A stretch of DNA of 64,000 bases, from positions 1-64,000 of the forward strand of contig JACRLB010000009.1 of assembly GCA_016235445.1 (NCBI GenBank), written 5' to 3'. Source of the DNA: Chloroflexota bacterium. Lineage in GTDB: Bacteria > Chloroflexota > Anaerolineae > Anaerolineales > Villigracilaceae. The notes beneath the pieces were generated by a model that was given only the letters and a program-made list of their open reading frames with translations, was not told where the DNA came from and ran no database searches. Within the stretch, counting starts at the first letter, position 1, and the number at the start of each line of letters is the position of its first letter. The translations under genes and the position numbers were made by a program. Below are positions 5,697 to 59,545 of this stretch, piece by piece.

Positions 5697-6755
5697 ATGA
5701 TGATCATAATGAAAGCCAATGCCACACCACAGCAGGTGGAAGCAGTTATTGCGCAGGTAAAGTCGGCGGGGCTGAACGTCCATCTCTCGCAGGGAGTCGA
5801 AGCGACGATTATCGGCGCGATCGGTGAGACGCACAGCATTCCCGCTGAACGCTTTGAAGGATTGGATGGCGTGGATATTGTCCAGCGCATCACCCAGCCG
5901 TACAAACTCGCGTCGCGTCAATTTCACCCTGAGAATACGATCTTGCCTATCGACGGGTTCACCGTCGGCGGAAACGAGATCGCCATCATTGCGGGGCCGT
6001 GTTCAGTGGAGAGTCGCTCACAGATCATTGAATCAGCCATCGCTGTGAAAGAGGCGGGAGCGTCCGCGTTGCGTGGCGGAGTGTTCAAGCCGCGCACGTC
6101 GCCGTACTCCTTCCAGGGACTTGGCGAAGAAGGTCTCGAACTGCTCGCCGAAGCCCGCGAAGTGACGGGACTGCCCATCGTCGTCGAGATCATGTCGCAG
6201 GTGCAGTTGGATGTGATGGTCAAATATGTGGACGTTCTGCAAGTGGGCGCGCGCAACATGCAAAATTTCAACCTTCTGCGAGTCATCGGCGAGTCGCGCA
6301 CGGCGGTTCTGCTCAAACGCGGACTCTCCGCCACCATCGAAGAACTGCTCATGTCTGCCGAATATATTCTGGCGGGGGGAAACCAGCGCGTGATGTTGTG
6401 CGAGCGCGGCATTCGCACTTTTGAAACATCCACCCGCAACACAACCGACATCAACGCCATCCCCGTTTTGAAAAACCTAACCCACCTGCCCGTCATCCTC
6501 GACCCAAGCCACTCCACAGGTTTTGCGGATTATGTCGCCGCCATTGCGCGCGCGGGCGTCGCCGCAGGCGCCGATGGACTGATCATCGAAGTCCACCCTG
6601 ACCCCGCGAAAGCAGTCTCGGATGGCAAGCAATCGCTCAAGCCCGAAGCCTTCGCCGCGATGGTCAAGCAGGTCGGTCAGATCGCCCAAATTATGGGACG
6701 AAGTCTCGCATCCGTTCAAGGCGAGTATTCGCCATTGAAACAGGGTTGGGCGTAA
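5697..6755 (+). CDS. aroF: DAHP synthase (type I beta, with ferredoxin-like regulatory domain), copy 1
   Basis: Condenses phosphoenolpyruvate and erythrose 4-phosphate to DAHP, the first step of the shikimate pathway. The 352-residue protein begins with a ferredoxin-like domain of about 70 residues, as in the Thermotoga maritima enzyme, where this domain mediates feedback inhibition by Tyr and Phe. The barrel follows with [51 protein letters not shown] and ILDPSHSTG. The ATG at 5697 matches the family start and is preceded by AGGAG; an upstream extension to 5619 would be repeat-derived. A second, very similar gene follows directly. Confidence 0.95.
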
Positions 6756-6756
6756 G

Positions 6757-6858
6757 TGAAAATGCAGAATGCAAAATGCAGAAGTCAGAATTTTTATTCT
6801 GCATTCTGCATTCTAAATTCTGCATTCAAAATTCTAAATTCCGCATTCAAAAAGGAAC
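6757..6858. repeat. heptad array, ATTCTGC-type, partly inverted
   Basis: The spacer between the two DAHP synthase genes is built from 7-base words such as AATGCAG on the left and ATTCTGC/ATTCCGC on the right, which are complementary and can fold into a hairpin around the TTTTTA centre at about 6791. It could act as a weak intercistronic hairpin. The same words invade the coding regions of aroA, aroE and aroC. Confidence 0.8.
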
Positions 6859-6865
6859 TTTCCCC

Positions 6866-7894
6866 ATGATGATCATCATGCACCCCGGCGCGCCGCGCGA
6901 ACAGATCGACGCAGTCATCGCTGAAATTGAAAAACATAATCTATCTTCCCATCCCATCTTTGGCGTGGAGCAAACCATCATCGGCGCAGTCGGTGACGGT
7001 CATTACGTTCTCAAAGAAACCTTCGAAGCCCTGCCAGGCGTTTTATCTGTGCAAAGAATTTCACAGCCATATAAACTTGCCTCACGCCAGTTCCACGAAC
7101 ATGATTCAATTTTCCAACTTGACGGTTTCTCTGTCGGCGCAACAGAAATCCCGATCATCGCAGGACCCTGCTCGGTTGAGTCCCGCGCGCAGATTCTTGA
7201 AATCGCGCAAGCCGTCAAAGAAGCGGGCGCGAACGCCCTGCGCGGCGGAGTCTTCAAACCGCGCACATCGCCGTATGCCTTTCAGGGTCTCGGCGAAGAA
7301 GGGCTTGAATACCTCGTTGAAGCCCGCGAGAAAACAGGCCTGCCCATCGTCGTCGAAGTGATGGCCGTTTCACAAATCACGATGATGGAAAAATATGTGG
7401 ACGTCTTTCAACTCGGCGCGCGCAACATGCAGAACTTCAATTTACTTCGCGCCATCGGCGAAACCCGCACGCCCGTGCTTTTCAAACGCGGCATGTCTGC
7501 CACCATCGAAGAAATGCTCATGGCAAGCGAATACATTCTCAGCGGCGGCAACACCCGCGTCATGCTTTGCGAGCGCGGCATCCGCACTTTTGAAACCGCC
7601 ACGCGCAACACCACCGACATCAACGCCATCCCCGTTCTGAAAAAACTTACGCATCTGCCTGTCATTATTGACCCGAGTCATTCCACGGGTGACTCCGCTT
7701 TCGTTTCGTCCATCGCAAAAGCAGGCGTTGCCGCGGGCGCCGATGGCATCATAGTCGAAGTCCATCAAGACCCCGCGCACGCCATCTCCGACGGCAAGCA
7801 ATCGCTCACACCCGAAGCCTTTGCCAAAATGGTGAAGCAGGTTCGGGCGGTGGCAGAGGCGGTGGATCGGAGATTAGTAATTGGTAATTCGTAA
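6866..7894 (+). CDS. aroF: DAHP synthase (type I beta, with ferredoxin-like regulatory domain), copy 2
   Basis: The tandem paralogue of the preceding gene: 342 residues, with the same N-terminal ferredoxin-like domain ([20 protein letters not shown]) and the same catalytic motifs ([49 protein letters not shown]). Even the first codons are nearly identical to copy 1. The differences concentrate in the regulatory domain, in the linker to the barrel and near the C-terminus, so the two isozymes may respond to different end products. AAAGGAA precedes the ATG; a longer frame to 6746 runs through the repeat array and is not believed. The gene ends 22 bases before tyrA. Confidence 0.95.
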
Positions 7895-7916
7895 TTACCA
7901 ATTACCAATTACCAAA

Positions 7917-8774
7917 ATGGAAGATGACAAATTTACCCTCGCAACCTCTAAAATCGCCATCATCGGATTGGGATTGATGGGCGGCTCGCTCGCGTTGGGA
8001 TTGAAAGGCAAATGCGCCGTTCTCTATGGATGTGACCCGCATCTTCCCACGCTTGAGCTTGCTCTGTCCCAACAAATAGTGGATTACGCTGACAGTGATC
8101 CTGCCAAACTTCCCTCTGATGTTGACCTTGTGATTCTGGCGGCGCCAGTTCCATCCATCATTGCGCTCATTCACCAATTACCAATTACCATCTCTCACCC
8201 CTGCATCGTCATGGACTTGGGCTCAACAAAAAAACTGATCGTCGAAGCCATGTCCCGTCTCCCCGAACGCTTCGACCCCATCGGCGGACATCCCATCTGC
8301 GGCAAGGAAAAACTCTCCCTCGCCAACGCCGAACGGACTTTATATTACGCCGCGCCATTCCTGCTCACGCCGTTGGAGCGAACATCATCACGCGCCATCT
8401 CCGCCGCGAACCAGATCATCGAAGCCCTCGGCGCAAAAGCCAAAACGCTCGACGCCGCCGAACACGATCGCATCCTCGCCTCCACGAGTCATTTGCCGTT
8501 TCTGATTTCCTCCGCGCTGGCGCTTGCAACACCCAATGATGTCGCCCCCTTCGTCGGCCCTGGCTTCAAATCCACAAGCAGACTCGCTGGCACTTCTTCA
8601 TCCATGATGCTGGGCGTATTACAATCCAACCGTGAAAATATATTGAATGCGCTTCACACCATGCAAGCCCAACTCACCCAAATTGAAACTGCCCTCTCTA
8701 CCGAAGACATTACCAAACTTGAATCCATCCTAAACGAATCCCGCTCCACCTACCAATCCCTCACTGGCAACTAA
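7917..8774 (+). CDS. tyrA: prephenate dehydrogenase
   Basis: Oxidatively decarboxylates prephenate to 4-hydroxyphenylpyruvate (or arogenate to Tyr). The 285-residue protein has an N-terminal Rossmann motif (IIGLGLMGGSLALGL), an acidic residue after the second strand (YGCDPH), the substrate motif GGHPICGKEKLS, and a helical dimerisation domain; no ACT domain follows, so feedback control is not obvious. The ATG at 7917 follows directly after a heptad array (ATTACCA words) with no Shine-Dalgarno site, so initiation may depend on translational coupling with the upstream gene. Two further heptad words lie inside the gene at 8172-8190 and encode HQLPITI. Confidence 0.9.
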   Translation: MEDDKFTLATSKIAIIGLGLMGGSLALGLKGKCAVLYGCDPHLPTLELALSQQIVDYADSDPAKLPSDVDLVILAAPVPSIIALIHQLPITISHPCIVMDLGSTKKLIVEAMSRLPERFDPIGGHPICGKEKLSLANAERTLYYAAPFLLTPLERTSSRAISAANQIIEALGAKAKTLDAAEHDRILASTSHLPFLISSALALATPNDVAPFVGPGFKSTSRLAGTSSSMMLGVLQSNRENILNALHTMQAQLTQIETALSTEDITKLESILNESRSTYQSLTGN

Positions 8775-8813
8775 CCAATCTCTAATCTCTAATTACCAAT
8801 CTCCAATTACCCA
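8775..8813. repeat. heptad spacer before aroA
   Basis: The whole tyrA-aroA gap consists of CCAATCT/CTAATTA-type 7-base words, leaving no ribosome-binding site for aroA. Confidence 0.75.
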
Positions 8814-10175
8814 ATGCACATCACCCCCATCCCCCACCCCCTCTCCGCCACCGTCCGCGTGCCTGGCTCCAAGTCGCTGACCAACCGCGCCTTGCTCATC
8901 GCCTCTCTCGCGGACGGAACCACACGCCTCACCAACGCCCTCTTCTCCGACGACTCGCGTTACTTCGCCAGAGCATTGCAAACCCTCGGCTTCGACATTC
9001 AACTCGATGAAGCGAATCACGAAATGACAGTCACAGGTCTTGGCGGAAAAATCCCCGCAAAAAATGCCGAACTCTTCATCGGCAACGCAGGTACGGCGGC
9101 GAGATTTCTCTCCGCGTTTCTGACTCTCGGACATGGCGAATACATTTTGGACGGCGAGCCGCGTATGCGCGAACGTCCGATAGGAGATTTGGTTGATTCA
9201 CTCGCTCAACTTGGCGCAAAGATTGAGGCAATGCAGAATGCAGAAGGCGGAATGCAGAATTCAGAAATTTGCCCGCCAGTGAAAATAATTGCATCTGGTT
9301 TGCCTGGTGGAAAAACAAAAATGGCGGGAGACATTTCAAGTCAATTCTTATCTGCTTTATTGATGGTCGCTCCCTATGCAAAATCCCCCATCGAAATTAC
9401 GCTTTCAACAGAATTAAACTCCAAACCCTACGTGGACATGACCATCTCAATCATGAATGACTTCGGGGTAGAAGTACAACGCAACGACTACCAATCCTTC
9501 GCCGTCCCAATTACCAATTACCAATTACCAATCAATCTCCAATCTCTAATCTCCAATCCCCAGTCTCCAATCTCCACCTCCTACTCTATCGAAAGTGACG
9601 CCTCCGCCGCCTCCTACTTCTTCGCCGCGCCTGCCATCTGCGGCGGGACAGTCAAAGTGGAAAACATCTCACGCAGATCCATCCAGGGTGACATAGCCTT
9701 CGTTGATGTTCTTGCCAAAATGGGTTGCACTGTACAAGAAACTGATAACCCTTCGACTTCGCTCAGGGCAGGCTGTATACTGGTCACTGGTCACTCGCAC
9801 TTACAAGGCATTGACATCGACATGCGCGACATCCCAGACACCGCCCAAACCCTCGCCGCCATCGCCCCGTTTGCTGATTCGCCGACCCGAATTCGCGGCA
9901 TCGCCTCTGCGAGAGTGAAAGAGACAGACCGTGTCCACGCCACCTGCGCCGAACTGACTCGACTCGGCGTCCGCGTGGAAGAGCATGAAGATGGCATGAC
10001 CATCCATCCCGTAGAAAAGATGCGTCCCGCTGTCATCCAAACCTACAACGACCACCGCATGGCAATGGCGTTCTCCCTCATCGGCCTGCGCTTCGACGGC
10101 GTCACCATCGAAAATCCATCCTGTGTTTCCAAAACTTTCCCCAATTTTTTTGAAGTCCTCGAAACCCTGCGTTAA
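8814..10175 (+). CDS. aroA: 3-phosphoshikimate 1-carboxyvinyltransferase (EPSP synthase)
   Basis: Transfers the enolpyruvyl group of PEP to shikimate 3-phosphate, the sixth shikimate step and the target of glyphosate. The 453-residue protein has all the landmarks: PGSKSLTNRALL, GNAGTAARFLSAF (close to class I sequences), GEPRMRERPIGDL, SSQFLSALLM, DASAASYFFA, DMRDIPDTAQTLA, RVKETDRV and NDHRMAMAFS. It carries three in-frame insertions made of repeat DNA: heptads at 9230-9264, ten heptads at 9507-9576 (peptide ITNYQLPINLQSLISN...), and a TTCGACTTCGCTCAGGG element at 9749-9777. All fall between conserved motifs, so the enzyme is probably functional. Confidence 0.95.
   Translation: MHITPIPHPLSATVRVPGSKSLTNRALLIASLADGTTRLTNALFSDDSRYFARALQTLGFDIQLDEANHEMTVTGLGGKIPAKNAELFIGNAGTAARFLSAFLTLGHGEYILDGEPRMRERPIGDLVDSLAQLGAKIEAMQNAEGGMQNSEICPPVKIIASGLPGGKTKMAGDISSQFLSALLMVAPYAKSPIEITLSTELNSKPYVDMTISIMNDFGVEVQRNDYQSFAVPITNYQLPINLQSLISNPQSPISTSYSIESDASAASYFFAAPAICGGTVKVENISRRSIQGDIAFVDVLAKMGCTVQETDNPSTSLRAGCILVTGHSHLQGIDIDMRDIPDTAQTLAAIAPFADSPTRIRGIASARVKETDRVHATCAELTRLGVRVEEHEDGMTIHPVEKMRPAVIQTYNDHRMAMAFSLIGLRFDGVTIENPSCVSKTFPNFFEVLETLR
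9230..9264. repeat. intragenic heptad array in aroA (1)
   Basis: Five consecutive 7-base words AATGCAG, AATGCAG, AAGGCGG, AATGCAG, AATTCAG inside aroA, encoding the peptide MQNAEGGMQNS. The same word is intergenic at 6757 and intragenic in aroC at 11930. Confidence 0.9.
9507..9576. repeat. intragenic heptad array in aroA (2)
   Basis: Ten consecutive 7-base words (three CCAATTA, one CCAATCA, then ATCTCCA variants), exactly 70 bases, inside aroA. Because 3 heptads equal 7 codons, the peptide repeats every 7 residues (NYQLPIT, NYQLPIN, then LQSLISN, PQSPIST). Confidence 0.9.
9749..9794. repeat. dispersed CTTCGACTTCGCTCAGGG element plus TGGTCAC repeat in aroA
   Basis: The imperfect inverted repeat CCCTTCGACTTCGCTCAGGG followed by GCAGGCTG and two copies of TGGTCAC. 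It is translated in frame as PSTSLRAGCILVTGH within aroA. A related word (CTTCGACAGGCTCAGTAC) is intergenic at about 42614. Confidence 0.7.
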
Positions 10176-10181
10176 TTGTTT

Positions 10182-11093
10182 ATGTCTAATTCTTCATTCC
10201 GCATTCCGCATTCTGCATTTCATTTGGGCTTAATCGGCTTTCCCCTCAGCCACTCCCTCTCGCCCAAAATCCACACCGCCGCCCTCAAAGCCTGTGGACT
10301 GCAAGGCGGCTATTCTCTATTCCCCATCCCCCCCGAAGACAAACAGGGATTGAGAGACTTGCTTGACCGCGTTCGCGCAAAAGAAATACAGGGTTTGAAC
10401 GTCACCATCCCGCACAAGCAAAACGTGATTCCCTTGCTCGATGAACTCACCCCCACCGCAAAAGCCATCGGCGCAGTCAACACGATTTATCTTCGTGAAG
10501 ATAAACTTATCGGCGACAATACCGACGCTCCCGGATTTCTCACAGACCTAAAACGTGTCATAAATTCCGCATTCTGCATTCCGCATTCTGCATTCCGCCC
10601 TCCACATTCTGCATTAGTTATCGGGGCGGGCGGTTCTGCTCGTGCAGTGGTTTATGCCTTACTCAACGACGGCTGGAACGTCACCATCGCCGCCCGTCGC
10701 ATCGAACAAGCCCAACAACTCGCTCAATCTTTCCCCAATTACCAATTACCAATCTCCAATCTCCAATCTCCAATCTCTATTCTCCAATCTCCAACCTCCA
10801 ATCTCTCCCTCCTCGTCAACACCACCCCCCTCGGCATGACCCCCAATATCGAAGCCTCTCCCCTTCCCGAAAATCTGTCATTGCCTTCAAATGTTTTTAT
10901 TTACGATTTAGTCTACAATCCACCCGAGACAAAACTTATAAAAGACGCCCGCGCACAGGGACTATCCGCCACGACAGGTTTGGGAATGCTCATCGAACAA
11001 GCCGCATTATCTTTTGAACTTTGGACTGGACATAACCCGCCGCGCGAAACTCTCCGCGCCTCCGTCGAACAATCTCCAGTCTCCAATCTCTAA
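10182..11093 (+). CDS. aroE: shikimate dehydrogenase
   Basis: NADPH-dependent reduction of 3-dehydroshikimate to shikimate. The 303-residue protein shows LIGFPLSHSLSPKIHTAAL, the catalytic Lys in NVTIPHKQ, the catalytic Asp in GDNTDAPGF, and the cofactor motif VIGAGGSARAVVYAL. Three heptad arrays are read in frame: near the N-terminus (10195-10222, FRIPHSAFH), between the two domains (10564-10612, FCIPHSAFRPPHSAL) and after the cofactor strand (10735-10804, NYQLPISNLQSPISI...). Together they explain why the protein is longer than the family's usual 270-290 residues. The ATG lies 6 bases after the aroA stop; no strong ribosome-binding site is seen. Confidence 0.93.
   Translation: MSNSSFRIPHSAFHLGLIGFPLSHSLSPKIHTAALKACGLQGGYSLFPIPPEDKQGLRDLLDRVRAKEIQGLNVTIPHKQNVIPLLDELTPTAKAIGAVNTIYLREDKLIGDNTDAPGFLTDLKRVINSAFCIPHSAFRPPHSALVIGAGGSARAVVYALLNDGWNVTIAARRIEQAQQLAQSFPNYQLPISNLQSPISILQSPTSNLSLLVNTTPLGMTPNIEASPLPENLSLPSNVFIYDLVYNPPETKLIKDARAQGLSATTGLGMLIEQAALSFELWTGHNPPRETLRASVEQSPVSNL
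10195..10222. repeat. intragenic heptad array in aroE (1)
   Basis: CATTCCG, CATTCCG, CATTCTG, CATTTCA: four 7-base words within the first 15 codons of aroE. Confidence 0.85.
10564..10612. repeat. intragenic heptad array in aroE (2)
   Basis: Seven consecutive words (ATTCCGC/ATTCTGC alternating, one degenerate CCTCCAC), 49 bases, placed between the DNTDAPGF domain and the Rossmann domain; the peptide repeats HSAF every seven residues. Confidence 0.9.
10735..10804. repeat. intragenic heptad array in aroE (3)
   Basis: Ten consecutive CCAATTA/CCAATCT words, 70 bases, inside the cofactor-binding domain of aroE. The word composition and length match the large array in aroA. Confidence 0.9.
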
Positions 11094-11129
11094 TCCTCCA
11101 TTTACCAATTACCACTTACGGAGTTTCCC

Positions 11130-12344
11130 ATGTTACGCTTCCTCACCGCTGGTGAATCCCACGGACCATCGCTCACCGCCATCCTCGATGGTATGCCTGC
11201 TGGATTGCCATTATCCCCCGACATCATCAACAAAGAACTCGCCCGCCGACAGCAGGGATACGGCTCAGGCGGACGCATGAAGATCGAAAAGGATACCGTG
11301 CAAATTCTCGGCGGCGTGATGGGCGGCGAAACCACGGGCTCGCCGATTGCCCTGCTCGTGCAAAACGATGACCATGTCAAATGGAAAGGCAAAGCCATCG
11401 AGCCGATGACCGCTCCACGCCCAGGTCACGCGGATTTGACAGGCGCGGTCAAATACGGCTACAAGGATTTGCGCCCCGCCCTCGAACGCGCCTCCGCCAG
11501 AGAAACCACCATGCGCGTCGCCGCGGGCGCGGTCTGCAAACATTTTCTCGCGCAGTTCGGCATCATCATCGGCGGATATGTTTTCTCCATCGGCGAAGTC
11601 CAAACCGATTTTAGCGACATGCCCTACGAAGAGCGCTTCACCCGCGCCGAAGAATCGGATGTGCGCTGTCCCGTTGAATCATCTGCAAATCAAATGCGCG
11701 CCGAAATTGAAAAAACCATTCACGGCAAGAACACCCTCGGCGGCGTTCTTGAAATCTTTGCGCTCAACCTCCCCGTTGGCCTGGGAAGTTTCGTTCAATG
11801 GGACAAACGTCTCGAAGCCAAACTTGCCATGGCAGTTATGAGCGTTCAGGCAATAAAAGGAGTCGAAGTTGGCGACGCCTTCGAAAACGCAAAACGACTT
11901 GGAACACAAGCCCACGACCCGATCCAATTGCAGAATGCAGAAGGCAGAAGGCAGAATACCAAAGATCAATTACCAATTACCAATCACCAATTACAGCGCA
12001 GCACCAACCGCGCAGGCGGCACCGAAGGCGGAGTCAGCAACGGACAGCCGATCATCATCCGCGCCGCGATGAAGCCCATAGCCACCACGCTTCTCCCCCA
12101 GCCGACAGTGGACCTGGCGTCAGGGACAGAATCTCCCACCAAATACGAACGCTCCGACTTCTGCCCCGTCCCGCGCGCCGTGCCAATTCTCGAATCCATG
12201 GTCGCCTTCGTCCTCGCCGATGCACTCCTCGAAAAACTCGGCGGCGACTCGATGAACGAAATAAAGCCACGCTTCGAGTCTTTGCGTAAAGCCACCCTCG
12301 AAGATTTACCAATGGACAACATCCCGCATGTATTCTGGGAGTAA
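11130..12344 (+). CDS. aroC: chorismate synthase
   Basis: Makes chorismate from EPSP with reduced FMN, the last shared step. The 404-residue protein carries the family signatures GESHGPSLTAILDGMPAGL, RPGHADLTGAVKYG and RASARETTMRVAAGA, and the C-terminal DFCPVPRAVPI region. An in-frame stretch of nine heptads (11930-11992, QNAEGRRQNTKDQLPITNHQ) interrupts the region before the GGxxGGxSNG-like segment. CGGAGTTTCCC precedes the ATG, the same type of start context as at both DAHP synthase genes and the MBL hydrolase (16460). The upstream gap is another heptad spacer. Confidence 0.95.
   Translation: MLRFLTAGESHGPSLTAILDGMPAGLPLSPDIINKELARRQQGYGSGGRMKIEKDTVQILGGVMGGETTGSPIALLVQNDDHVKWKGKAIEPMTAPRPGHADLTGAVKYGYKDLRPALERASARETTMRVAAGAVCKHFLAQFGIIIGGYVFSIGEVQTDFSDMPYEERFTRAEESDVRCPVESSANQMRAEIEKTIHGKNTLGGVLEIFALNLPVGLGSFVQWDKRLEAKLAMAVMSVQAIKGVEVGDAFENAKRLGTQAHDPIQLQNAEGRRQNTKDQLPITNHQLQRSTNRAGGTEGGVSNGQPIIIRAAMKPIATTLLPQPTVDLASGTESPTKYERSDFCPVPRAVPILESMVAFVLADALLEKLGGDSMNEIKPRFESLRKATLEDLPMDNIPHVFWE
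11930..11992. repeat. intragenic heptad array in aroC
   Basis: Nine 7-base words: GCAGAAT, GCAGAAG, GCAGAAG, GCAGAAT, ACCAAAG, ATCAATT, ACCAATT, ACCAATC, ACCAATT. The two word types seen separately elsewhere are joined here, and the total of 63 bases is exactly 21 codons. Confidence 0.9.
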
Positions 12345-12463
12345 AAAGTAATTGGTTGTTGGTGATTGGTAATTGTCTTTTAATCACCAATCGCCCATCT
12401 CCATTTACCAATTACCAATCTCTAATTACCATTCTGCATTCCTCATTCACCCTTCTACATTCT
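12345..12463. repeat. heptad spacer, partly inverted, before aroKB
   Basis: The 119-base gap has GGTGATTGGTAATTG-type words on the left and CCAATTACCAATCTC/CATTCTG words on the right, so it can fold on itself. No ribosome-binding site is visible just before the aroKB ATG. Confidence 0.7.
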
Positions 12464-13963
12464 ATGAACCTCTTCCTCTACGGCCCGCCTGGCACAGGCA
12501 AATCCACCATCGGCAAACTCCTTGCGCGCAGTCTCAACCTGCCTTTCATCGACCTCGACCGCGTCATCGAAACAAACGCAGGCATGTCCATTCCGCAAAT
12601 TATGGAACAGCAGGGCGAGTCAGCCTTTCGTGATCTTGAATCTACTGCGTTGAAGAATCTTTTATCAGAAAAAGAAAACGTGGTTGCGCTTGGCGGCGGC
12701 GCTTTACTGCGCGATGAAAACCGCGCGCTCGCTGAATCAACTGGCAGGGTTCTTTTGCTCATGGCAGAGTTGCCCACCTTGCTGGAGCGATTGAAAAATG
12801 AAACTGGCAAACGCCCGTTGTTGGCAGGCGGCTTGAAAGCAAAACTCTCTTCATTGCTTGCAAAGCGCGCAGAACATTACAACTCTTTCCCGCTGAAAAT
12901 TCACGTGGACGATAAAACCGCCGAACAAAACGCTCACCAAGTTCAAGTAATTTTGGGGCGGCATCACCTCTCCGCCATGGGAAAATATGACGTCATCGTA
13001 GGGCAAGTTTCCAACTTGCCCTCCTTGCAAAACCCCATCATCGTTACTGACCAGAACGTGGCAAAACATCATCTCGAAAAAATCAACATCGATAAATCCA
13101 TCATCCTCCCCGCTGGCGAGGAACATAAAAATCTCAAAACCATCTCGCGCCTGTGGAAAGCCTTTCTCGAAAACGGACTCGACCGCAAAAGCACGGTCAT
13201 TGCCCTCGGCGGCGGCGTGGTCGGCGACATGACAGGCTTCGCCGCATCCACGTACATGCGCGGCATTGATTGGATCGGCGTGCCCACAACTCTGCTTTCG
13301 ATGGTGGATGCTTCGCTCGGAGGAAAGACTGGATTCGATTTGCCCGAAGGAAAAAACCTCATCGGCTCTTTTCATCCCCCGAAGCTGGTCATTGCAGACC
13401 CAAGCCTTTTGCTTACGCTGACAGAGCGTGAACTGCGCTCTGGCATGGCAGAGGTCGTCAAGCATGGAATTATCTCCGACCCTGAATTATTTAATTTATG
13501 CGGGCGCGGGTTGGATTGGGTAAAAAATAATCTCGAAGAAATCGTCAAACGCGCGATGGCGGTGAAGATTCAAATTATCGAAGAAGACCCGTATGAAAAG
13601 GGATTCCGCGCGGCGTTGAATTTGGGTCACACGGTTGGTCATGCGGTGGAACTTGTCAGCAAGTTTGAATTGCGGCACGGAGAAGCGATTGCCATCGGCA
13701 TGGCGGTTGAGGCGAAGTACTCTGCCCGGGTTGGGCTGGCAGGCTTCGGGTTGGTGGAGGCGGTTGAAGAGTCGCTCACAGCGTTGGGGTTGCCCATCCA
13801 CATCCCCGCAGGAATGCCGCGTGATGAAATCATCCGCGCCATGCGGGTGGATAAAAAGAAAAATGCGAACGCAATTCGATTTGCACTGCCAGTGGAAATT
13901 GGTAAAGTGGAATTGATCGAGGTGCGTGTGACGGATTTGGAGGAAGTAATTGGTAAATGGTAA
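12464..13963 (+). CDS. aroKB: bifunctional shikimate kinase / 3-dehydroquinate synthase
   Basis: A 499-residue fusion covering two non-consecutive steps. Residues 1 to about 165 are shikimate kinase: Walker [10 protein letters not shown] at residue 7, the substrate motif [15 protein letters not shown], and [10 protein letters not shown]. Residues from about 175 on are 3-dehydroquinate synthase: [64 protein letters not shown], and the metal-binding [11 protein letters not shown]. Such AroK-AroB fusions are known, for example in Thermotoga. The ATG at 12464 begins the kinase domain directly; the frame to 12356 is repeat-derived. Confidence 0.95.
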
Positions 13964-58194: not shown

Positions 58195-58623
58195 ATGACA
58201 ACCCTTCCTGAATCCCTCATTGAAATCCGCGAACACAACGGACCCGATTACAAACCATTGGTAGATTACCAGGCCTGGCGCGTGGCGCTGATGAATTACA
58301 CAGCCGACCTCACACCCGACAAGATCAACCGTATGCAAAAACACACCGAGACGGATGAAGTCTTTGTCTTGATGACGGGGCGGTGTATTCTTTTCATCGG
58401 CGAAGGGATGGAGGCGGTTACCAAAGTCCATGCGGTGGATATGGAGCCGTATAAGCTGTATAACGTGAAGCGCGGCGTTTGGCATTCCCACACCTTCAGC
58501 GAAGATGCGCGGGTGTTGATCGTGGAAAACTGTGACACCGTGGATGCGAATTCCCCGTTTGTGCCGCTTTCAGAGAGTCAATGCGCTGAGGTTGTGGAGT
58601 TAACCAACAAGTTGTGGAACTGA
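58195..58623 (+). CDS. cupin-like protein
   Basis: A 142-residue single-domain protein with cupin features (MQKHTETDEVFVLMTGRCILFIGEG, YNVKRGVWHSHTFSEDARVLIVEN): one His/Glu set in the first motif and a His pair in the second. It is the type often annotated as an uncharacterised cupin. No ribosome-binding site is present; the -10 box 6 bases upstream implies a leaderless message. Its stop runs into a heptad hairpin that likely terminates it. Confidence 0.82.
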   Translation: MTTLPESLIEIREHNGPDYKPLVDYQAWRVALMNYTADLTPDKINRMQKHTETDEVFVLMTGRCILFIGEGMEAVTKVHAVDMEPYKLYNVKRGVWHSHTFSEDARVLIVENCDTVDANSPFVPLSESQCAEVVELTNKLWN

Positions 58624-58683
58624 CAAAAGAAGAAAGAGGAAAGAAGAAAGATTTTCTTTCTTCTTTCCTCTTTCTTCTTTCTT
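58624..58683. terminator. hairpin made of purine heptads (AAAGAAG / CTTTCTT)
   Basis: Four purine heptads (AAAGAAG, AAAGAGG, AAAGAAG, AAAGATT) are followed by their inverted complement, giving a long hairpin between two convergent genes. It doubles as an A/T-rich bidirectional terminator. Confidence 0.8.
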
Positions 58684-59545
58684 AATTGAACTCAAACGTC
58701 GGCAGTCCCACCACATTCGTCACCACTTTGAACAGCCCGCCTGAGAGCGGGTATTTTTTTAGGTCCGCTTCGCTCATGCCTTTGCGCGCCGAAGTGACAT
58801 ATAACTCGTTCATATCTCTGCCGCCAAAAACGCAGGAGGAAGGCTGTAAGGCAGGGATGGCAACCTGCTCCAGCAATTTACCTGAGTTCGGATTCCACTT
58901 TGTGACCTGCGCCCCACCCCACATGGCGATCCAGAGATTGCCGTCCATGTCGGAAGTCATGCCGTCAGGCCAGCCAAGGGATTCAGGGACATGGATTGCC
59001 ACATGCGGATTAGCAATTTGACCTGTGCTCACATCGTAGTCAAAGGCTTTCACTTCGCGAGTGGGAGTATCAATGTAGTAAAAGGTTTTATGGTCAGCGC
59101 TCCACGCGAGGCCGTTGGAGATGGTGATGCCATCGAGCAGGCGCGTTGAATTTTTTCCATCGAATGAATAGAGAGAACCTGTGGGGTCTGTCTCGTTCAA
59201 GTCCATTGTGCCAGCGAGGAAGCGGCCAGCGAGGTCACATTTGCCGTCGTTGACGCGGTTGGTAGCAGATTCATTCAAAGCGAAGAGAACTGTCTGCTGG
59301 GACGAATCAGGCGCAAAGTCTACGAATGAGGCGCGGCCTTCGGCGTCGCTCAGGCCGAGGATGAGATTCCCGTTCTTGCGTGGGGCAAGGCATCCGATCA
59401 AATCATCCAATTGAGCCAGGAGTTCGTTGCCTGCATAAATTTTTTTTTCAAGAATGTCGATCCAATATAAAGTTTGGGTCTTCGCATCCCACGCGGGGCC
59501 TTCGCCCAATGTTGCTTTTGCATCGAAGATTAATTCGGCCTGCAT
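58682..59545 (-). CDS. SMP-30/gluconolactonase-family protein
   Basis: A 287-residue six-bladed beta-propeller lactonase. Metal-binding landmarks are visible: Glu in LGEGPAWDAKTQTLYWIDI, Asn/Asp in NGLAWSADHKTFYYIDTPTREVKAFDYD, and Asp in WPDGMTSDMDGNLWIAMWGG. Members hydrolyse sugar lactones. The ATG at 59545 is one base after the corA stop; there is no strong ribosome-binding site, so coupling with corA is likely. Confidence 0.9.
   Translation of the reverse strand: MQAELIFDAKATLGEGPAWDAKTQTLYWIDILEKKIYAGNELLAQLDDLIGCLAPRKNGNLILGLSDAEGRASFVDFAPDSSQQTVLFALNESATNRVNDGKCDLAGRFLAGTMDLNETDPTGSLYSFDGKNSTRLLDGITISNGLAWSADHKTFYYIDTPTREVKAFDYDVSTGQIANPHVAIHVPESLGWPDGMTSDMDGNLWIAMWGGAQVTKWNPNSGKLLEQVAIPALQPSSCVFGGRDMNELYVTSARKGMSEADLKKYPLSGGLFKVVTNVVGLPTFEFN

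Follow-up and report, generated by a model that had tools for sequence, protein, structure and literature searches.

Tandem repeats built on a seven-nucleotide unit have been described in several bacterial groups. According to MacGregor 2015 (PMC4679880), the short tandem heptanucleotides of cyanobacteria and the TAACTGA repeats of Beggiatoaceae, Cyanobacteria and Bacteroidetes are mostly intergenic and, when found in open reading frames (ORFs), lie mostly at their ends; some genomes carry mixed words, and the insertions and deletions that separate close strains occur mostly in 7-nt steps. The same source reports the proposal of Mrazek and colleagues that 7 nt is perhaps the length contacted by the polymerase. 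The subject of the present work is a series of heptanucleotide arrays lying within the tyrA, aroA, aroE and aroC genes of a Chloroflexota bacterium (Anaerolineales, Villigracilaceae; assembly GCA_016235445.1, 4.13 Mb in 55 contigs). The DNA analysed, hereafter the window, is the whole stretch of 64,000 nucleotides at positions 1 to 64,000 of contig JACRLB010000009.1 (C38). Judged by AroA, its closest named relatives are Anaerolineae/Chloroflexi assemblies, as expected of an Anaerolineales-type Chloroflexota. These arrays share with the heptanucleotides covered by that source the tandem 7-nt units, the small number of copies, the genome-wide distribution and the occurrence of some cases within ORFs. 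Unlike them, they occupy the interiors of core enzymes, recur at the same loops in many species, use many words and can replace native sequence without changing its length.

Other systems offer partial parallels. The GGGNATC heptamers of Xanthomonas and Nostoc, as described in Rehm 2015 (PMC4692102), follow one G-rich consensus, are intragenic in 7-11% of cases and keep the same context in a second species in 83%; the heptameric unit, the dispersion and the frequent inverted pairs are shared, but the present words are diverse and subject to turnover, and those that occur most often are not G-rich. The Rickettsia palindromic elements (RPEs) are presented in a review on miniature inverted-repeat transposable elements (MITEs; PMC10969869) as families of about 150 bp that encode conserved peptides and sit in frame in coding genes. 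In both cases unrelated metabolic genes are occupied in frame, which is said there to be compatible with protein structure, whereas among the present arrays we saw no conserved element, and sequence can be replaced with its length kept. Finally, inverted repeats in yeast coding DNA are homogenised by template switching (PMC8604942); a short-range templated multinucleotide change in coding sequence is common to both, whereas the steps seen here are mainly direct, 7 nt long and recurrent across a lineage, with a mechanism that we infer. Among the titles and abstract openings searched, no report of coding heptamer arrays in Chloroflexota was found, and the arrays are best read as a coding variant of the known heptanucleotide repeats.

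With modest confidence, we attribute the arrays to a mutation process that favours steps of 7 nt, is strong in this Anaerolineales lineage and is filtered by what proteins tolerate. In the window, two DAHP (3-deoxy-D-arabino-heptulosonate 7-phosphate) synthase genes are followed by tyrA, aroA, aroE, aroC and an aroK-aroB fusion. The names tyrA, aroA, aroE and aroC had been proposed by an earlier, sequence-only reading and they hold, with AroA, AroE and AroC above NCBIfam cut-offs and TyrA resembling prephenate/arogenate dehydrogenase while scoring under every curated cut-off. Arrays were located by Tandem Repeats Finder (TRF) and lag scans, and reading frames were checked separately. Every array named by that reading was recovered, with reading frames open through all in-gene arrays, and one that it had overlooked, ACTGGTC at 9779-9795 in aroA, was found adjoining a CTTCGACTTCGCTCAGG repeat (9751-9767). 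A loose scan of the window returned 23 runs at lag 7 and 19 at lag 14, with 8-13 at lags that are multiples of three and 0-5 at lags 4, 5, 8, 10, 11 and 13. The four genes and their arrays are as follows, with the predicted local distance difference test (pLDDT) given where it bears on an array.

7917-8774, + strand: tyrA, prephenate/arogenate dehydrogenase family (family matches under curated cut-offs)
8173-8190, + strand: AATTACC array in tyrA, residues 86-92, length-neutral (most orthologues have equal length and other residues)
8814-10175, + strand: aroA, 5-enolpyruvylshikimate-3-phosphate (EPSP) synthase (NCBIfam)
9230-9266, + strand: AATGCAG array, AroA site 1, residues 139-151, insertion between two strands (TRF; pLDDT 55 at 141-150)
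9507-9576, + strand: AATTACC then AATCTCC arrays, AroA site 2, residues 232-255, insertion (pLDDT 56 at 241-250, 77 at 251-260)
9753-9776, + strand: STSLRAGC, eight additional residues (314-321) at AroA site 3, overlapping the CTTCGACTTCGCTCAGG dispersed repeat (pLDDT 66 at 311-320)
9779-9795, + strand: ACTGGTC array, AroA site 3, residues 322-328, predicted strand, length-neutral replacement (lag scan, alignment, AlphaFold model)
10182-11093, + strand: aroE, shikimate dehydrogenase (NCBIfam)
10195-10219, + strand: CATTCCG/CATTCTG array, AroE residues 5-13, ahead of the conserved core (TRF)
10564-10615, + strand: ATTCCGC/ATTCTGC array, AroE site 1, residues 128-145 (TRF; pLDDT 69 at 131-140)
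10735-10805, + strand: AATTACC then AATCTCC array, AroE site 2, residues 185-208, helix-to-strand junction (TRF, alignment, model)
11069-11120, + strand: AATCTCC/AATTACC array across the aroE C-terminus and the aroE-aroC gap (lag scan)
11130-12344, + strand: aroC, chorismate synthase (NCBIfam)
11929-11994, + strand: GCAGAAT/GCAGAAG then AATTACC arrays in AroC, residues 267-289, insertion (TRF, alignment)

The period of seven is not a peculiarity of the window. In a strict scan of 31 aro loci of the same genus (514 kb, window included), lag 7 accounted for 99 arrays and lag 14 for 49; lag 8 gave 11, each remaining lag between 4 and 15 gave 0-4, and triplet shuffling of these loci left no array at all. 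Seven-nucleotide tandem units exceed other unit lengths and are spread over many genome sites. Grid sampling of 400 kb of the window genome outside the window (L155-L174) gave 26 exact lag-7 runs of at least 9; in 400 kb from another species of the genus (G021) 7 were counted, against 1-8 at other lags, and 685 kb from 59 loci, nearly all belonging to other phyla, showed no lag-7 excess (11 runs, 2-17 at other lags). These samples together indicate that the excess is bound to the lineage and uneven within the genus. A genus of another family (L070, L071) has its own arrays in aro genes, including TyrA, and in the aroKB of L070.

Within the genus, arrays with different words recur at the same places of the same enzymes, as established by orthologue alignment, the DNA of the loops, a FastTree phylogeny on conserved codons of 35 loci and parsimony counts of changes. 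The main sites lie near residues 142, 234 and 325 of AroA, 127 and 187 of AroE, 268 of AroC and 89 of TyrA; minor ones are AroA 402 (three species), AroE 11 (three) and TyrA 206 (one). Defined as exact runs of at least 8, interior arrays number 45 in aroA (20 of 31 species), 49 in aroE (23 of 31), 11 in aroC (10 of 28) and 5 in tyrA (4 of 30), with none in 24 genus orthologues of aroKB or in 27 of each DAHP synthase. Nine of the aroE arrays are a single word, AATAGGG, near residue 45 in nine species, where it coincides with the conserved YSLFPI codons; they were left out of the turnover argument and kept among the 113 arrays of the flank analysis described below. Each of six loops shows 7-11 words, and together they require no fewer than 83 state changes, the state being a word or its absence. 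Arrays are about 12 times denser in the aro span of the 30 other species than next to it (93 in 156 kb, compared with 15 in 294 kb; window excluded). Variation between species is large at the array loops, most orthologues having different residues there. By eye, and with no statistics attached, some words repeat neighbouring conserved codons (AACGTTC in L066 and GTAACTC in L056, both in aroC), and in the window aroA steps of ACTGxxx extend from the T-D-N codons. The loops used by arrays elsewhere hold non-heptamer repeats (LSKVEG, SPSPxLGEGxGVR, SRERSRRDATR) in aroA or aroE of L047, L048, L057, L059 and L065.

Some of the residues encoded by AATTACC in the window are common to several species of the genus, at AroA site 2 (PITNY, in six other loci), AroE site 2 (QLPI, in seven) and AroC (PITN, in L044). 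The sequence-only reading had named identical residues in other genera as evidence against its interpretation. They were found at AroE site 2 only, where QLPI from AATTACC is also present in the two other-family species L070 and L071, which may reflect either an old shared array or convergence; at the remaining sites, four other-family loci differ from the window. An array-coded C-terminal tail of AroE (SVEQSPVSNL or SIEQSPISNL) is common to the window, L041 and L057, the last being distant from both on the tree.

That the arrays are insertions at loops, as had been proposed, is correct in part. They are coding and lie mainly at loops, but at TyrA, AroA site 3 and part of AroE site 2 they replace native codons without length change. 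The array listed at 8172 in tyrA is real, yet it is a replacement in a segment as long as in most orthologues, and that given as 10195-10222 is also real (10195-10219) but precedes the conserved core of AroE. The loop DNA was compared with synonymous recodings of the same peptide (six loops, 178 sequences, p <= 0.01). Lag-7 periodicity exceeded the recodings in 65 sequences, against 8 at lag 8 and 3 at lag 10. It was also found in 32 of the 102 loops that do not exceed the commonest genus length, meaning that native sequence has been overwritten in register and that not all arrays are insertions. In the four other-family loci, lag 7 was significant in two of four at AroE site 2, one of four at AroC and none at the remaining four sites.

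At AroA site 3, periodicity was found in 13 of 26 unchanged-length loops. The words ATCGTCC, ACTGGTC, ACTCGTT and ACTTGTA occupy one place in different species, the length remaining mostly equal. The word is ACTGGTC in the window and ATCGTCC in L041, its next-nearest relative, and no exact array is present in the sister L073; the core length is the same in all three, save for the eight additional residues of the window. Four close pairs were compared over 30 aligned bases at this site: three have an identity of 0.47-0.60 there and of 0.68-0.93 in the flanks, and the fourth (L061-L063) is conserved at 0.90.

The models are consistent with these placements. AlphaFold2 models AroA with a mean pLDDT of 92; among ten-residue blocks, the only ones under 80 are 141-150, 241-250, 251-260 and 311-320, which correspond to array sites 1 and 2 and to the STSLRAGC insert of site 3, while the site 3 array itself (322-328) is predicted in a confident strand. 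The AroE model (mean 89) is weak at site 1 and at the termini, and its blocks 191-230 score 74-82, extending past the site 2 array. A location in coding sequence mainly at predicted loops is thereby supported.

Arrays are also found elsewhere in the genome. The sampled stretches contained 35 array-bearing ORFs longer than 180 residues, and a scan of 30 of these matched 27 to a Pfam family; the array-bearing genes include those of MurG, a MurD-like ligase, another Mur ligase, Ddl, MurJ, leucyl-tRNA synthetase, indole-glycerol-phosphate synthase, MetH and exonuclease VII, where the arrays occupy interior or edge positions. The idea that arrays are restricted to conditionally dispensable pathways was abandoned in view of the cell-wall and tRNA-synthetase genes. 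MurG, detected in 54 of 57 genus genomes, has an insert of 16-36 added residues in 6 of the 30 best loci and a short loop in the other 24; the inserts carry inverted heptamer arms, and the window-genome copy folds at z -6.86 as DNA. In-frame insertions thus occur in the unrelated genes of AroA, AroC, AroE and MurG. A sample of window-genome stretches, chosen array-rich ones included, held 132 arrays, of which 67 were intergenic, 44 gene-interior and 21 at gene edges; among the arrays at the aro genes, many are coding. An inverted partner within 120 bp accompanied 21 of the 67 intergenic arrays, 9 of the 21 at gene edges and 4 of the 44 interior ones, compared with 1 of 132 random segments.

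The words themselves are numerous and unevenly distributed. Among 240 arrays, 77 distinct words were counted, the commonest being AATTACC, AAGGATG and AACCTTC; their G+C content is 39%, against 52% for the sequence, and no G-rich consensus emerges. A CANT core is present in 38% of the 77 words and in 19% of background heptamers, a pattern suspected by eye for which nothing is claimed, and likewise nothing is claimed for GTAA-type words, which show the largest excess and were chosen post hoc. Word abundance is species-specific. Counting two-copy matches, overlaps inside long arrays included, AATTACC reaches 111 (62 + 49) in the window genome, 86 in G005 and 53 in G002, and is absent from 10 of the 57 genus genomes, some genomes being incomplete and two of these ten less than 90% complete. 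AACCTTC reaches 84 in G031 and 9 in the window genome, and CATCCTT 136 in G372 and 81 in the window genome; reversed-pattern controls gave at most 2 per genome. Across the phylum, AATTACC matches occur in 16 of 301 genomes, and all those with at least five belong to the family of the window.

In the mechanism that we favour, the growing DNA strand would slip or jump by 7 nt, or fold back, and copy its neighbour. Units could thereby be added, giving insertions and inverted hairpin pairs, or the strand could slip and then return, in which case a heptamer would be overwritten by its neighbour and the length kept. The process would act genome-wide, and in coding genes only in-frame results at tolerant places, mostly loops, would survive; consequently new words would repeatedly be written into the same places, in AroA, AroE and AroC and less often in TyrA. 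Certain words are in addition amplified genome-wide in certain species. Short-range misalignment or template switching agrees with the period of 7 in the DNA, the length-neutral rewriting, the inverted pairs and the large number of words. It also agrees with the sequence just beyond the 113 in-gene arrays: in the heptads next to the exact runs, similarity at lag 7 is 0.49 and 0.56, compared with 0.19-0.33 for lags 5, 6, 8, 9 and 10.

Several observations weigh against this mechanism. The flanking similarity could in part be decayed array, and the MurG insert may be one inherited element with inverted arms. At AroA site 1, periodic DNA was found in 9 of 22 longer loops and in none of the 9 unchanged ones, so insertion happens too. 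For AroE, the commonest genus length (18 at site 1, against 15-17 in the four other-family loci) may include old insertions, for which reason AroA sites 2 and 3 offer the firmest case for length-neutrality. The abundance of particular words by species shows that local slippage alone is insufficient. Even the most similar two of the 35 loci share only 83% identity; no single event was therefore caught, and the slip or template-switch step and its direction are deduced from the accumulated patterns. Nor was an enzyme behind the arrays identified among those looked for, MutS1 and SbcD being present in array-rich and array-poor species alike and reverse transcriptases being scattered; judged by eye and with no statistics, MutS1, SbcD and RVT_1 have no obvious tie to array-rich species. 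The MutS1 reading frames measure 866-877 aa in the array-rich G000, G372 and G005 and 847-858 aa in the array-poor G021, G023, G026, G027 and G364, a trend that is not clean, as the array-poor G032 has 879 aa. A more specific proposal, to which we assign a low probability, is that these bacteria possess an activity of replication or repair whose templated step is truly 7 nt long; it would periodically overwrite loops of essential enzymes in register and at constant length, and would also spread species-favoured words in trans.

Among other explanations, insertion in frame of a dispersed or mobile repeat, MITE- or RPE-like, with inverted heptamer arms as its ends and words differing by decay, is conceivable and rather unlikely. 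It would account for the genome-wide abundance of single words in particular species and for the MurG insert, and other dispersed repeats occupy the same loops. One such repeat is CTTCGACTNCGCTCAGG, which has 14 copies in the window genome, one of them within AroA (9751-9767) adjoining a heptamer array, and is found in 27 of the 57 genus genomes. However, the 77 words have no common consensus, and AroA site 3 is among the places where sequence is replaced without length change.

Copying of words between neighbouring sites of one locus, which the sequence-only reading had put forward as an active process, appears improbable as a general account. AATTACC, AATCTCC and AATGCAG do recur along the window cluster, and with the window included a shared word is found in 22 of 420 pairs within loci, a value reached by 73 of 2000 permutations. 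Without the window, sharing falls to 10 of 287 pairs within loci (3.5%), against 235 of 7304 between loci (3.2%); what is found instead is an AATTACC word frequent throughout the genome.

Seven not being a multiple of three, the arrays might also be viewed as a contingency (phase-variable) locus that toggles aromatic biosynthesis by frameshift. The roughly twelvefold enrichment in the aro span of the 30 other species would agree with this. Yet none of the 120 consensus tyrA, aroA, aroE and aroC orthologues, some of them cut at contig ends, is broken by an array, and the sole in-frame stop inside a match (L066 aroE) is at the natural C-terminus. The arrays in the genes of MurG, the MurD-like ligase, Ddl, MurJ and leucyl-tRNA synthetase, and their absence in the genus from AroKB and both DAHP synthases, also speak against phase variation, which is accordingly given very little credence. 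Selection for particular loop peptides is held to be slightly less credible still: a strand-like pattern is apparently retained, by eye, at AroA site 3 and AroE site 2, but the DNA periodicity surpasses that of synonymous recodings in the 65 loops mentioned above, similar words occupy intergenic gaps and the peptides vary freely among species. Most genomes being fragmented and many plainly metagenome assemblies, an assembly or binning artefact could be suspected, but the chance of it is negligible, since the genes stay in frame and the same loops are affected in many separate assemblies, including G017 and G032 (2 and 4 contigs).

Further arrays of the cluster lie between genes, and they are listed here with the fusion gene that closes it.

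6758-6852, no strand assigned: intergenic inverted array, left arm AATGCAG and right arm ATTCTGC (hairpin z -3.98 at 6758-6822)
7872-7918, no strand assigned: inverted AATTACC array in the interval between the second DAHP synthase gene and tyrA (hairpin z -6.44)
8772-8811, + strand: AATCTCT/AATTACC array in the tyrA-aroA gap (TRF, lag scan)
12352-12447, no strand assigned: mosaic array in the aroC-aroKB gap (TRF, lag scan)
12464-13963, + strand: aroK-aroB fusion, free of interior arrays by the above definition in its 24 genus orthologues

The tandem pair of DAHP synthase genes (5697-7894), array-free inside as noted above, is 71% identical. Within the fusion, a palindrome, GGGCAAGTTTCCAACTTGCCC (13001-13021), is placed at the kinase/synthase junction and resembles another dispersed repeat. 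Far from the cluster, at 58622-58687, a long hairpin of AAAGAAG heptamers and their reverse complement folds at z -7.84 as DNA.

Earlier papers on heptanucleotide repeats, in the portions consulted, contain proposals of mechanism, none of them demonstrated. The same loops followed in about thirty species are equivalent to replicate experiments that separate insertion from in-register replacement and expose the 7-nt step at codon resolution. AroA site 3, AroE site 2, AroC and MurG are concrete sites at which it can be asked why the step is seven. The pattern suggests that, in this lineage, core enzymes have been reshaped by a mutational habit and not by selection on the peptide.

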